A DNA stretch of 64,000 nucleotides from Bartonella tamiae Th239. GTDB lineage: Bacteria; Pseudomonadota; Alphaproteobacteria; Rhizobiales; Rhizobiaceae. Under the pieces are notes generated by a model. It was given only the letters and a program-made list of their open reading frames with translations, ran no database searches and was not told the DNA's origin. Numbering within the stretch: position 1 is the first letter of the stretch; the number at the start of each line of letters is the position of its first letter. A program made the position numbers and the translations under genes. The stretch is taken from positions 1,309,063-1,373,062 of the forward strand of contig NZ_JH725147.1 in the NCBI RefSeq assembly GCF_000278275.1. The letters are read 5' to 3'. Positions 12,493 to 37,533 of this stretch are shown here, piece after piece.

Positions 12493-12635
12493 TGTTTGAA
12501 GATCATATAGATTTAACCGTCCATTCTTACTGATATATGCTCATTTGAAATAAAAAAAAGTTTGTGAACAAAATGCTTGAGTTTGCGTCTATAATCTTTT
12601 AAACAGTAATTTATTCCACACACGGAAATTGGGTG

Positions 12636-12713
12636 GTTGCGGGAGAAATCCGTAACGATCCGCCGGTGGCAGTTACATCTGCCTCTTTTTCGTGGAGGTT
12701 CAACCGGAAAGGA
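12636..12713 (+). promoter_or_regulatory. structured rpsB 5' leader, candidate S2 autoregulatory element
   Basis: A stretch clearly richer in GC than its surroundings precedes rpsB and folds well by eye. Hairpin 1: GTTGCGG (12636-12642) with CCGTAAC (12650-12656), seven pairs including one G-U. Hairpin 2: an outer stem CCGGT (12663-12667) with ACCGG (12703-12707), enclosing GGCAG (12668-12672) with CTGCC (12679-12683). The closing arm overlaps the first bases of the Shine-Dalgarno region GGAAAGGA (12706-12713), so the fold could gate translation. Autogenous S2 leaders are known in other bacteria; that this is one is inference. Confidence 0.5.
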
Positions 12714-12720
12714 CAAAACA

Positions 12721-13518
12721 ATGGCATTGCCAGATTTTTCTATGCGCCAACTTTTAGAAGCTGGTGTTCATTTTGGTCACCAAACACATCGTTGGAACCC
12801 AAAAATGGCGCCCTATATTTATGGGCAACGTAACAATATTCATATTATTGATCTTGCACAAACTGTACCACTTTTACACCAAGCGTTAAAAGTTGTGTCT
12901 GATACAGTTGCACGTGGCGGTCGCGTTTTATTTGTAGGTACCAAGCGTCAAGCTTCTGAAATTGTTGCAGATTCAGCCAATCGTTCAGCGCAATATTATG
13001 TCAATGCGCGTTGGTTGGGTGGTATGTTAACAAACTGGAAAACCATTTCTAACTCTATTCAACGTTTACGTAAAGTTGATGAAATTTTATCGGATGAAGC
13101 CGCCGGCTTCACCAAGAAGGAGCGGTTAAATCTTGATCGTGAGCGTGAAAAACTTGATCGTGCTCTTGGTGGTATTAAAGATATGGGATCTATTCCAGAT
13201 TTAATTTTTGTGATTGATACCAATAAAGAAGCTATTGCTATCCAAGAAGCAAAGCGTCTTGGCATTCCAGTGGTTGCTGTCATTGATACCAATTGTGACC
13301 CTGATAATATTGATTATCCAATTCCAGGTAATGATGATGCATCACGTGCCATTTCTCTTTATTGTGATTTAATTGCACGTGCAGCTCTTGATGGTATTGC
13401 GCGTCAGCAAGGATCAATGGGTGTGGATTTGGGTGCGCAAGCTGAAGCTCCCGTAGAACCTGTTCTTGAAATGACTGCGGAATCCCATCCTGAAGCTGTA
13501 GCTTCAGTGCAAGAATAG
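12721..13518 (+). CDS. rpsB: 30S ribosomal protein S2
   Basis: A 265-residue small-subunit protein. The start [20 protein letters not shown] at 12721 follows GGAAAGGA and matches the family; the in-frame extension to 12637 overlaps the structured leader and is not coding. Conserved blocks include [32 protein letters not shown] and [26 protein letters not shown]. The last 30 residues are an acidic, low-complexity tail. It is the first gene of the rpsB-tsf-pyrH-frr cluster. Confidence 0.98.
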
Positions 13519-33955: not shown

Positions 33956-34828
33956 ATGGTAGCAAAAGGTAATATCACTTTGATAGCGGGCCCAACAGCC
34001 AGCGGCAAGTCTGATTTTGCTTTGAAACTCGCTGAAAAGACAGATGCAATTATTATCAATGCAGATTCAATGCAAATATATGATGTGTTGCAAATTATCA
34101 CAGCACGTCCTGCTTTAATCGATATGAAAAAAATACCACATTATCTTTATGGTTATATTCATCCATCTGTTGCTTATTCAACTGGTGAATGGATGCGTGA
34201 TGTTAAAAACATTATGAAAAGCCAGTCGCATAGAGAAATAATTTTTGTTGGTGGCACAGGTCTTTATTTTAAAGCTTTACTTGAAGGAATTGCAGAAATT
34301 CCTCCCGTACCAGAAGATATTCGGCAAAAATGGCGTAAAATTGCGCAAGAAGAAAGCGAAGAGAGGCTTTTTGCGTTACTCTTAAGTCAAGATGCTCAAA
34401 CCGCATCTCGCCTTAAACCACAAGATCGTCAACGTGTGACACGTGCTTTAGAAGTTTTTGAGGCAACAGGGCAATCCTTAAGTTATTGGCAAGATACAAA
34501 AACAATACCCATTATTGATAAGGATACGGCACAAAAATATCTTCTTTTTCCAGAACGCTCACTTGTTTATCAACGTATTGAACATAGATTTGATAAGATG
34601 GTCGCACGCGGTGCTCTAGAAGAAGTTCGCCAGCTTGCACAACTTAGCCTTAATCCTCAATTGCCAGCAATGAAAGCGATAGGAGTACCAGATCTTTTGG
34701 ATGTGTTGCAAAATATGAAGCCCTTGGATGAGGCCATTAAAAATGCAAAAACACAAACACGTCGTTACGCCAAAAGGCAAATGACATGGTTTCGTCATCA
34801 ATTTGATCAAAGTTGGAGTGTTCTTTAA
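33956..34828 (+). CDS. miaA: tRNA dimethylallyltransferase
   Basis: A 290-residue enzyme prenylating A37 of tRNAs that read UNN codons. Motifs: the P-loop IAGPTASGKSDFAL, INADSMQIYD, TARPALIDMKKIPHYLYGY, VGGTGLYFKALLEG and the C-terminal KTQTRRYAKRQMTWFRH. AAGGCGG precedes the ATG. The gene lies directly upstream of the ilv leader; readthrough into it is possible because no terminator is evident between miaA and the ilv promoter. Confidence 0.96.
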   Translation: MVAKGNITLIAGPTASGKSDFALKLAEKTDAIIINADSMQIYDVLQIITARPALIDMKKIPHYLYGYIHPSVAYSTGEWMRDVKNIMKSQSHREIIFVGGTGLYFKALLEGIAEIPPVPEDIRQKWRKIAQEESEERLFALLLSQDAQTASRLKPQDRQRVTRALEVFEATGQSLSYWQDTKTIPIIDKDTAQKYLLFPERSLVYQRIEHRFDKMVARGALEEVRQLAQLSLNPQLPAMKAIGVPDLLDVLQNMKPLDEAIKNAKTQTRRYAKRQMTWFRHQFDQSWSVL

Positions 34829-34968
34829 TATTTAGGATGATTCGATATTAATTCATGTTTTGTATTTATGCATCTGAACTATTAACACTTTTTATTATAG
34901 CAGATATCTATCAAGCAGATAATTTATGTGATTATATTATAGGTGATTTAACTCTTGAAATTTTTGCA

Positions 34969-34997
34969 TTGACGAAAGCTAATCTGCGTAATAATAT
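34969..34997 (+). promoter_or_regulatory. sigma-70 promoter of the ilv operon
   Basis: TTGACG (34969-34974) and TAATAT (34992-34997) are separated by exactly 17 bases. The predicted transcription start (about 35004) places the leader peptide ATG a few bases into the RNA. Each hexamer is one mismatch from the E. coli consensus. Confidence 0.7.
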
Positions 34998-35013
34998 TTT
35001 AATTATGGAAAAA

Positions 35014-35058
35014 ATGATTATTCTAGTGGTAGGCAGGCACATGGGGTGGATGGTTTAA
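35014..35058 (+). CDS. ilv operon leader peptide
   Basis: A 14-codon reading frame, MIILVVGRHMGWMV, with consecutive Ile-Ile-Leu-Val-Val codons, all three branched-chain amino acids and products of the pathway downstream. GGA lies 4 bases before the ATG; an in-frame ATG three codons earlier (35005) would be almost leaderless given the promoter position. Ribosome stalling on these codons when charged Ile, Leu or Val tRNAs are scarce would change folding of the RNA that ends at the terminator at 35090-35111. Confidence 0.75.
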   Translation: MIILVVGRHMGWMV

Positions 35059-35111
35059 CCATCTGGCTTAGGTCTCCCATGTGCATGTAGGCTCCCTCGG
35101 GGGCCTTTTTT
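35037..35111 (+). promoter_or_regulatory. transcription attenuator of the ilv operon
   Basis: GCACATGGG (35037-35045, inside the leader peptide) is a perfect 9-base complement of CCCATGTGC (35076-35084), forming the 1:2 pause stem with a smaller GATGG/CCATC hairpin inside. The terminator follows: GGCTCC (35090-35095) with GGGGCC (35100-35105) around a CTCG loop, then TTTTTTA. A ribosome stalled on the Ile/Leu/Val codons would cover the first arm and free the downstream arm for an antiterminator. Architecture is seen; the exact antiterminator pairing is inferred. Confidence 0.75.
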
Positions 35112-35145
35112 ATTTTCGCTTTAATAAATTGAATGAGTTGTAAAA

Positions 35146-36945
35146 ATGAAAGATCATCAAAAATCACAAGACAGTGCTGATGGAAAAACAATGTCAGGAG
35201 CTGAAATGGTTGTTCAGGCACTGATTGACCAAGGAGTTGAAAATATTTTTGGTTACCCAGGAGGTGCTGTCCTTCCAATTTTTGATGAAATTTATCAGCA
35301 AGAGTCTTTTCGCAATATCCTTGTGCGCCACGAGCAAGCAGCAGGTCATGCAGCAGAGGGCTATGCGCGATGTACTGGAAAAACAGGTGTGATGCTTGTG
35401 ACTTCAGGTCCAGGTGCAACCAATGCGGTGACGCCCCTTCAAGATGCATTAATGGATTCTATTCCACTTGTGTGCATTTCAGGCCAAGTTCCAACAACTC
35501 TTATTGGAACAGACGGATTTCAAGAAGCCGATACAGTCGGTATTACACGTCCATGTACCAAGCATAATTGGTTGGTTAAAGACATCAATGATCTATCTCG
35601 CATTCTTCATGAGGCCTTTCATATTGCAAAAAGCGGTCGTCCAGGACCAGTTCTTGTTGATATTCCAAAAGATATACAATTTGCCAGTGGTGTTTATACT
35701 GCACCAAAGTCACTGCCTCGTACAAGTTATCAACCACAATTAGAAGGCAATAATCGCGCAATTGAATATGCAGTTTCATTGTTAGTGAAAGCGAAAAAGC
35801 CTGTTATTTATTCTGGTGGAGGCGTTATTTCATCAGGTGCAGATGCTGTTCGTTTGTTACGTGAATTGGTCGAAATTGGAAATTATCCGATTACCTCCAC
35901 ATTAATGGGGCTTGGTGCTTATCCTGCTTCTGGTAAAAATTGGCTTGGAATGCTTGGCATGCACGGTACTTACGAAGCTAATATGACAATGCATGATTGT
36001 GATGTAATGCTTGCGATAGGTGCCCGATTTGATGATCGTATTACGGGTCGTTTGGATGCTTTTGCTCCAAATGCAACAATTATTCATATTGATATAGATC
36101 CTTCATCTATTAATAAAATCGTCCGTGTTGACGTTCCTATCATTGGCGATGTTGCTCATGTCTTGGAAAATATGACACGGCATTTACGCGCAACGCAACA
36201 GGCATATGACAAGCAATCACGACAAGAGTGGTGGAAGGAAATAGATCATTGGCGCGCAAGAAAATCATTGGCTTATAAGCCAAATAAAGATGTGATTATG
36301 CCACAATATGCACTTGAGCGACTTTATGCGTTAACAAAAGATAAATCAGCATACATTACGACGGAAGTCGGACAACATCAAATGTGGACGGCGCAATATT
36401 ATGGGTTTGATGAACCGCATCATTGGATGACATCTGGTGGTTTGGGAACTATGGGATATGGTTTTCCCTCAGCAATCGGTGTACAAATTGCAAAACCTGA
36501 TGATCTTGTTATTTGTGTTGCTGGTGATGCTTCTATTCAAATGAATATTCAAGAAATGGCGACAGCTATACAGCATAACGCGCCTGTTAAAGTTTTTATT
36601 TTAAATAATCAATATATGGGTATGGTCCGCCAATGGCAACAATTGCTTCATGGAAATAGGCTATCACATTCTTATACGGAAGCGATGCCAGATTTTGTAA
36701 AATTGGCTGAGGCTTATGGAGCTTTAGGCATTATTTGTTCCAATCCTGAAGAGCTTGACGATAAAATTGAAGAAATGATTACAAGTGATAAGCCTGTTTT
36801 ATTTGATTGTCGTGTTGCCCATCTGGCAAATTGTTTTCCAATGATTCCATCTGGTAGAGCGCATAATGATATGCTTTTGCCCGATGAAGCCAATGATGAG
36901 GCTGTAGCCAATGCGATTGATTCTAAAGGTCGTTCGCTTGTTTAA
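35146..36945 (+). CDS. ilvI: acetolactate synthase, large catalytic subunit
   Basis: A 599-residue ThDP/FAD enzyme condensing pyruvate to acetolactate (or with 2-ketobutyrate to acetohydroxybutyrate), the first common step of valine, leucine and isoleucine synthesis. Seen: the N-terminal ThDP-binding GYPGGAVLPIFDEIY with the catalytic Glu in RHEQAAGHAAEGYAR, the central FAD domain, and the C-terminal ThDP motif GDASIQMNIQEMATA...NNQYMGMVRQWQ. Expression should be controlled by the attenuator just upstream. The start at 35146 has only a weak Shine-Dalgarno. ilvN follows. Confidence 0.96.
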   Translation: MKDHQKSQDSADGKTMSGAEMVVQALIDQGVENIFGYPGGAVLPIFDEIYQQESFRNILVRHEQAAGHAAEGYARCTGKTGVMLVTSGPGATNAVTPLQDALMDSIPLVCISGQVPTTLIGTDGFQEADTVGITRPCTKHNWLVKDINDLSRILHEAFHIAKSGRPGPVLVDIPKDIQFASGVYTAPKSLPRTSYQPQLEGNNRAIEYAVSLLVKAKKPVIYSGGGVISSGADAVRLLRELVEIGNYPITSTLMGLGAYPASGKNWLGMLGMHGTYEANMTMHDCDVMLAIGARFDDRITGRLDAFAPNATIIHIDIDPSSINKIVRVDVPIIGDVAHVLENMTRHLRATQQAYDKQSRQEWWKEIDHWRARKSLAYKPNKDVIMPQYALERLYALTKDKSAYITTEVGQHQMWTAQYYGFDEPHHWMTSGGLGTMGYGFPSAIGVQIAKPDDLVICVAGDASIQMNIQEMATAIQHNAPVKVFILNNQYMGMVRQWQQLLHGNRLSHSYTEAMPDFVKLAEAYGALGIICSNPEELDDKIEEMITSDKPVLFDCRVAHLANCFPMIPSGRAHNDMLLPDEANDEAVANAIDSKGRSLV

Positions 36946-36957
36946 GGAGATATGCAT

Positions 36958-37533
36958 ATGAACGCTCAAAATATAAGCTTTGGCTCTGCTTATTTTATCG
37001 AGCCTGATAATGATCCAACTGAAACGCATATGCTTGCTGTGCTTGTGGATAATGAACCAGGCGTTCTTGCTCGCGTCATAGGTATGTTTTCAGGGCGGGG
37101 TTATAATATTGAAAGTCTGACTGTTGCTGAAACGGAGCATGAACAGCGCTTATCGCGCATTACAGTTGTGACCCGTGCAACGCCACAAGTCATTAATCAA
37201 ATACGCCATCAATTGGAGCGTATTGTTCCTGTGCATAAAGTGGTTGATTTAACGGTTAGTGCAAAAGAACAAAATTATGGTAGCCCAGTTGAGCGTGAAC
37301 TGGCTTTAATTAAAGTCGCAGGAGAGGGGGCAGACCGCATTGAAGCTTTGCGTTTGGCGGAAGCATTCCATGCGAAAGTGATTGATGCGACAGTAGAACA
37401 TTTTATTTTTGAAATTACAGGAAAGACATCAAAGGTCGATCAATTTATCAATATTTTACGTCCCTTAGGTCTTATTGAAATATGCCGCACAGGGGTGTTG
37501 GCTATGAATAGGGGACCAGAAAGCTTAGCATAA
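36958..37533 (+). CDS. ilvN: acetolactate synthase, small regulatory subunit
   Basis: A 191-residue regulatory subunit that activates the large subunit and confers valine feedback inhibition. The ACT domain starts ETHMLAVLVDNEPGVLARVIGMFSGRGYNIESLTVAETE; the C-terminal domain contains EGADRIEALRLAEAFHAKVID and ends in TGVLAMNRGPESLA. Two ATGs lie in frame at 36952 and 36958; AAGGAG is only 2 bases from the first but 8 from the second, so the second is preferred. The symbol ilvH is equally used for this family. Confidence 0.95.
   Translation: MNAQNISFGSAYFIEPDNDPTETHMLAVLVDNEPGVLARVIGMFSGRGYNIESLTVAETEHEQRLSRITVVTRATPQVINQIRHQLERIVPVHKVVDLTVSAKEQNYGSPVERELALIKVAGEGADRIEALRLAEAFHAKVIDATVEHFIFEITGKTSKVDQFINILRPLGLIEICRTGVLAMNRGPESLA

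Follow-up and report, generated by a model that had tools for sequence, protein, structure and literature searches.

A probable leader-peptide attenuator upstream of ilvI-ilvN in Bartonella tamiae and its relation to the Rfam family RF02502

The DNA analysed here (hereafter, the window) is a stretch of 64,000 nucleotides from Bartonella tamiae Th239, whose genome comprises 2.25 Mb in 2 contigs. On the forward strand, positions 35146–36945 encode the large subunit of acetolactate synthase, IlvI/IlvB (NCBIfam NF006581, 1158.3 bits against a cut-off of 974). The second gene of the operon, ilvN/ilvH, encodes the small subunit at 36952–37533 (NF008864, 219 bits, cut-off 119). The closest named relatives of this IlvI among 80 loci are found in an uncultured Bartonella MAG (84% identity) and in Bartonella apis (82%). 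Upstream of ilvI, and bordered on its other side by a gene that we take to be miaA, lies a module at positions 34969–35111. The initial annotation had described it as a promoter, a leader peptide, a pause stem and a terminator preceding acetolactate synthase; every element that it named is present in place, on the forward strand, and the genes that follow are cognate to the codons of the leader.

The promoter is composed of a -35 hexamer, TTGACG (34969–34974), and a -10 hexamer, TAATAT (34992–34997), with the 17-base spacing and near-consensus sequence ascribed to it. Taken by itself, such a match is at chance level, as 2 were found against 2.8 expected from shuffles of positions 34700–35300. 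Leaders from 78 named loci were compared with that of the window, giving a set of 79, and in all of these TTGAC starts 34–40 bases before the leader ATG; 78 of them also have TA at -15 to -13 from the ATG. Under a stricter -10 pattern (xAxxxT), the match lies 7–8 bases before the ATG in 50 of the 79 leaders and elsewhere in 9, and 20 have none. The gap between TAATAT and an ATG at 35005 in the window is 7 bases, a conserved spacing, so that transcription is expected to start at the ATG itself (35004–35005), giving a frame of 17 codons. None of the 79 leaders has a Shine-Dalgarno-like motif (GGAG, GAGG or AGGA) in the 13 upstream bases that were tested. Since TTGAC stands at a near-fixed distance throughout and a motif of this kind is missing, the leader peptide is probably a leaderless 17-mer read from 35005 instead of a 14-mer read from 35014. 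Leaderless mRNAs are reported to be numerous in Caulobacter and Sinorhizobium meliloti (PMC4117421), and trpL of S. meliloti is described as one (PMC10117765).

The leader open reading frame read in this manner, MEKMIILVVGRHMGWMV followed by a stop codon, occupies positions 35005–35058. The relatives in Bartonella and Tokpelaia start at the homologous ATG, and their peptides begin MKQIILVV... or MKNIILVV.... The 14-codon peptide originally proposed, MIILVVGRHMGWMV, is present as an open frame at 35014–35058, but its start is disfavoured and probably wrong: 17 codons from 35005 fit better, given the start used by the relatives and the near-fixed position of the promoter relative to that ATG. 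The row of Ile, Leu and Val codons stands as first reported, with control codons for Ile-Ile-Leu-Val-Val at 35017–35031.

Conservation of the peptide was assessed in an alignment of 73 of the 79 leaders (A1), from which 5 exact duplicates and one collapsed leader (L161) were excluded. Codons 6 to 9 of the window specify I, L or V in 73/73, 73/73, 66/66 (with 7 gaps) and 73/73 aligned leaders, respectively, and codon 5, the first control codon, does so in 50/73. Between 2 and 5 different codons are used at each of codons 6–9, and the retention of I, L or V there though the codons vary points to selection on the amino acids. When the 420 bases upstream of the ilvI match were examined in the 80 named relatives, the peptide was found in 78, examples being MKNLNVLIVVGRRMGRMV in Agrobacterium pusense and MKQIILVVRTRMGQMV in Bartonella apis. 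The two loci that gave no leader are L112 and L135; open frames are present upstream of ilvI in L112, and these are spurious, none of them being the leader peptide. The module therefore includes a short leader frame with codons for the end products of the operon, as a ribosome-mediated attenuator should.

Three structural elements overlap or follow the peptide. The first, P1, is a pause stem formed by positions 35037–35045 with 35076–35084, the perfect 9-bp pairing of the initial annotation; 99.7% of its cells are paired in the 73 leaders, with two-sided changes at 4 of the 9 pairs. Its 5' arm begins 5 bases past the last control codon, at a distance where a stalled ribosome could block the stem. 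The second, P2, is a hairpin round the stop codon (35048–35053 with 35059–35064) in which 94.7% of cells are paired and all 6 pairs show two-sided changes, the outermost pair being unpaired in 23 of the 73 leaders. The third is an intrinsic terminator between the leader frame and the first gene, with a hairpin of 35089–35095 and 35100–35106 (approximately -11 kcal/mol) and a T run at 35106–35111; the U-tailed terminator thus ends exactly where it had been placed. Its cells are 92.4% paired across the 73 leaders, and none of its pairs shows a two-sided change. The scan for terminators returned 4 on both strands against 0.3 expected, this 7-pair hairpin before a T run among them.

Taken together, P1, P2 and the terminator as defined in the window form standard pairs in 96.0% of 1605 cells of the 73 leaders, and pairing drops to 32–54% when the partners are slid by 1–3 columns. 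Two-sided changes occur in 10 of the 22 pairs, all in P1 and P2, compared with 4.4 in shuffles and with 0 of 500 shuffles as high, a result that is not a probability because the rows are related by descent. RNAalifold recovers P1 and most of P2 from this alignment unaided and misses the terminator. The fold of the window's leader amounts to -41.8 kcal/mol, against -31.55 (sd 3.42) for shuffles, and is modestly unusual (z -3.0, with 2 of 200 shuffles as good).

Positions 34830–35300 were scanned against all 4227 Rfam families. A match to RF02502 (Atu_C8, "Rhizobiales sRNA") was returned at 35004–35122, with 74.2 bits against a gathering score of 50 and spanning positions 1–122 of the 122 in the model, and the same match was recovered when the whole window was scanned. 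The consensus of the model itself includes AUG AUU AUU CUU GUG GUG. Elsewhere in the window, positions 12617–12721 match a different family, RF01815 ("rpsB sRNA"), with 42.4 bits against a gathering score of 40.

Within the GTDB family, RF02502 matches 335 of 346 genomes at E <= 1e-6, and 330 of these genomes are over threshold. The order gives matches in 131 of 249 genomes at E <= 0.001 (38 over threshold) and the genus in 26 of 61 at E <= 0.1 (13 over threshold). A class-wide sample of 190 genomes yields 4, including the window's genome and one from its order. The best-scoring over-threshold loci in the genus and order, 42 in number, were compared over 1.5 kb downstream with the window's IlvI; in 41 ilvI follows directly, and in the remaining one the neighbour is an MFS transporter. 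On the basis of the RF02502 match and this neighbour, the module at 34969–35111 is the ilvB/ilvI attenuator with leader peptide known from earlier work on alphaproteobacteria, and no new system. The observation itself is real, the conservation being decisive: the score of the Rfam match, its recurrence throughout the family and the covariation of two stems. The comparison of leaders in relatives, which had been proposed as a check, finds the control codons, stems, terminator and gene neighbour all conserved. Second ilvI-like genes with an RF02502 leader of their own were seen at L185 (genome G282), L181 (G085), L195 (G796), L196 (G556) and L193 (G639), and in G282 the two units of ilvI and leader stand in tandem.

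A leader peptide of alphaproteobacterial ilvB was described earlier (Vitreschak 2004, as cited in PMC1273637), and for the attenuation of Caulobacter ilvBN a terminator and Ile and Val codons in tandem are described (Tarleton 1994, as cited in PMC4117421). As far as these attenuators are portrayed in the citing papers, the window's leader peptide likewise precedes acetolactate synthase genes and shows no essential difference, representing a Bartonella member that is probably leaderless. In B. bacilliformis, leader RNAs have been reported (PMC7717549). Among the top-ranked matches to broad topics, which included few subscription papers, no literature was found on a Bartonella ilv attenuator or on such a module before an MFS gene.

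In enterobacteria, the attenuators of ilvGMEDA and ilvBN likewise have Ile/Leu/Val leader peptides, pause hairpins and terminator hairpins; they differ in having Shine-Dalgarno sites and defined antiterminators. We consider the module in the window very probably to be a ribosome-mediated transcription attenuator of the ilvI-ilvN operon. Attenuation of these genes by a branched-chain-amino-acid leader peptide, as first proposed, is strongly supported by the conserved codons, stems, terminator and neighbour. RNA polymerase would start on the leader ATG (35005) or immediately beside it, and a ribosome would begin on the leaderless RNA and translate Ile-Ile-Leu-Val-Val. With charged tRNAs in ample supply, it would reach the stop codon within P2, the 35089–35111 terminator would form, and termination would release a short RNA of approximately 107 nt. 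Were charged Ile-, Leu- or Val-tRNA scarce, the ribosome would stall just 5' of the 5' arm of P1 and block that stem, and the rearranged RNA would allow the polymerase to continue into ilvI. A response to Ile alone is uncertain, because a ribosome stalled at the first Ile codon may, with the footprint assumed, miss P1.

The switch from termination to read-through was examined by folding the leaders with the ribosome modelled as a deletion of the bases that it covers, assumed to reach 16 bases beyond where the P-site codon starts. The probability of the terminator exceeds 0.5 in 67 of the 73 free leaders, and once a ribosome occupies the last control codon it does so in 72 of 73, the exception being the window (0.20). 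Modelled stalling therefore does not weaken the terminator. With the ribosome at the stop codon, the value for the window falls to 0.05, the opposite of what is expected, unless termination also occurs at a competing hairpin that precedes the same T run. If the 5' arm of the terminator pairs with upstream bases while its 3' arm has yet to be transcribed, the median gain is 1.7 kcal/mol (best 5.3, window 4.7), compared with approximately -11 kcal/mol for the terminator. A classical 2:3 antiterminator was sought by masked folding of selected leaders and then of all 73, which gave nothing strong or shared. A pairing of GGUCUCC with GGGGGCC, seen by eye and favoured in the masked states of the window, was rejected as antiterminator because it would form a hairpin of its own before the T run. 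A further candidate antiterminator pairing, between AGC before the 3' arm of P1 and GGCU in the terminator arm, is available in 48 of the 73 leaders and is absent from the window. The description of the module as complete is thus not borne out, in that folding gave no convincing antiterminator. Since only weak competing pairings were found, the last step of the switch is one that we infer.

The classification of RF02502 by Rfam as an sRNA gene suggests another reading, in which the module is mainly a trans-acting small RNA and the peptide is incidental or dual-purpose, as for rnTrpL/peTrpL of S. meliloti. In PMC10117765, rnTrpL is described as the product of an attenuator with a leaderless 14-aa frame and as a dual-function sRNA. 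The window's module resembles it in its short, probably leaderless frame and in the predicted release of attenuator RNA as a small RNA, and the strong conservation of the 3' part of the peptide and of P1 and P2 would suit such a function. The same source presents rnTrpL as a Trp attenuator of trpE with reported activity in trans, whereas the window's codons are for Ile, Leu and Val and its gene is ilvI. Moreover, with ilvI directly downstream in all but one of the 42 loci and the codons matching the ilv products, cis attenuation accounts for the observations, and a mainly trans-acting role is unlikely. The module in the window matches RF02502 over the full length of the model. The neighbour and the peptide indicate that this family, filed as an sRNA gene, is mainly an attenuator of ilvI.

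A second alternative, that the leader is decaying and constitutive and merely lowers transcription of ilvI, may have its counterpart within the genus. Of 37 Bartonella genomes examined, 30 provided ilvI loci that could be read; the 7 excluded are G004, G008, G015 and G032 (no match), G014 (weak), G025 (ilvI in pieces) and G024 (not fetched). The peptide is present in 8 of the 30, the window and 7 others, and the remaining 22 (L011–L032) are without it. This absence was judged by eye, as chance I/L/V-rich frames are present in several of the 22 loci; none of these is homologous by position and sequence, save a start-less remnant in L026 (genome G003). There the codons ILVIVLL and the stop are in frame and the start codon has been lost, giving a fossil leader. 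In an IlvI tree of 44 rows, the 22 peptide-less sequences make up one side of a branch with support of 100/100, consistent with one change of state. Because all 14 outgroup rows have the peptide, its absence reads as loss. Among the 30 Bartonella rows the window branches first, and it falls outside the group of its 7 leader-bearing relatives. The peptide-less clade appears to consist of mammal-associated species. The initial annotation had linked this control to a reduced genome, and the relation runs the opposite way, as 18 of the 22 peptide-less Bartonella have genomes smaller than that of the window.

TTGACG is retained in all 22 peptide-less loci, as is at least one terminator of -6 kcal/mol or better, and 12 of the loci have two in tandem. 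The Rfam scan of 13 of the 22 loci gave nothing above threshold. A new structured element composed of a hairpin, terminators and a U-rich pairing was considered in 17 of the 22 loci; 3 of its 30 pairs show two-sided changes, and it is not claimed. In L004 (G007) and L005 (G005), two of the 8 leader-bearing loci, and in L043 (G065, which falls outside the 30 Bartonella loci read), a stop immediately upstream of the P1 arm shortens the peptide to MEKIILVVW; a ribosome terminating there would be left near the stalled position. A merely constitutive leader may be what the peptide-less clade retains. For the window, with its start codon, control codons, 9-bp stem, stop codon in P2 and terminator all intact and its RF02502 match over threshold, such decay is improbable. 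A riboswitch or protein-binding leader sensing a ligand directly, with the open frame fortuitous, would fit the covarying stems and the lack of a clear antiterminator, and is the most improbable of the alternatives, as the control codons stay I, L or V while the codons change, and the start, stop and promoter spacing are kept.

The reach of attenuation in the window is limited. The initial annotation had predicted single-operon control by the supply of Ile, Leu and Val, which does not hold for the pathway: only ilvI-ilvN lies downstream of the module, and the domain matches for ilvC (1), ilvD/edd (2) and leuA-type HMGL (2) are located elsewhere in the genome. For this reason the control covers at most the first committed enzyme. 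Neither a terminator of -7 kcal/mol or better nor an RF02502-like leader was found before five open frames inspected (ilvC, two ilvD/edd, one HMGL-like and a second TPP enzyme); a sixth, the HMGL-like frame of L176, runs off its locus so that its upstream region is outside view. Chance-looking I/L/V-rich frames are present before some of these ilv/leu-type frames. Upstream of the leuA-like frame of the genome (L175), a 39-codon frame with a Leu run (NTLLLDL) precedes a G+C-rich region; it is perhaps a leucine leader, and no Rfam family support was found for that region.

Copies of RF02502 are also found before a transporter gene. The downstream gene was read at 40 loci, mostly from two-copy genomes and thus no random sample, and was ilvI in 25, a Bcr/CflA-type MFS transporter in 14 and another frame in 1. 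The copies directly before the MFS gene (L182, L184, L188, L201–L204, L208–L210, L212–L214 and L223) come from genomes G187, G246, G413, G672, G683, G695, G710, G737, G782, G820, G828, G860, G875 and G878, which span 8 genera and 3 families by the labels of the genome collection. In G413 the MFS-associated copy is the sole RF02502 match. Between G246 and G187 the transporters share 49% identity, and TIGR00710 (Bcr/CflA) is the best NCBIfam model for both, with 217 bits in one and 163 in the other against a cut-off of 200.9. All 14 peptides of these copies contain Val-Val, and 9 have a third Val; of the two codons that precede the last Val pair, one has ceased to specify I, L or V in 8 of the 14. 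A second RF02502 copy in G757 (L211) lies near a 518-aa open frame, and neither ilvI nor an MFS gene was found there.

A protein search in the family provided 30 MFS loci. RF02502 is upstream in 7 of the 23 scanned by Rfam, all of them among the 12 loci that are 48% or more identical to the query. Within the same 12, a diverged module is visible by eye in L224, L226 and L230, and nothing was seen upstream in L229. The other 7 of the 30 (L237–L243) received a check for the peptide only, and none was found. At L228, which also belongs to the 12, a TPP riboswitch at positions 1244–1359 (74.4 bits) lies shortly upstream of a related MFS gene. With the MFS copies and the single loss of the peptide in Bartonella, the broader reading that RF02502 represents leaderless ribosome-stall sensors moved and dismantled in evolution, and not chiefly an sRNA, is one to which we give an even chance.

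The identity of the leader in B. tamiae is settled, and the Rfam "sRNA" RF02502 is indicated to be chiefly an ilv attenuator; annotations made from this model are better read as likely cis-regulators. A peptide with control codons, P1, P2, a terminator, a near-fixed promoter distance and an adjoining ilvI are what is directly observed across genomes. The Bartonella series provides a natural experiment in attenuator decay, from the intact leader through one cut after Val-Val-Trp (3 genomes) and one whose start is lost (1 genome) to the peptide-less clade. For experiments in the genus, Bartonella apis is reported to be engineerable at ilvD (PMC11389375). The MFS copies allow a direct test of the substrate of the transporter. 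Should the broader reading be true, the MFS transporter is predicted to be linked to the supply of valine or to a slowing of ribosomes; the peptide-less Bartonella clade, in turn, would be left with a sensorless regulator or a free small RNA.
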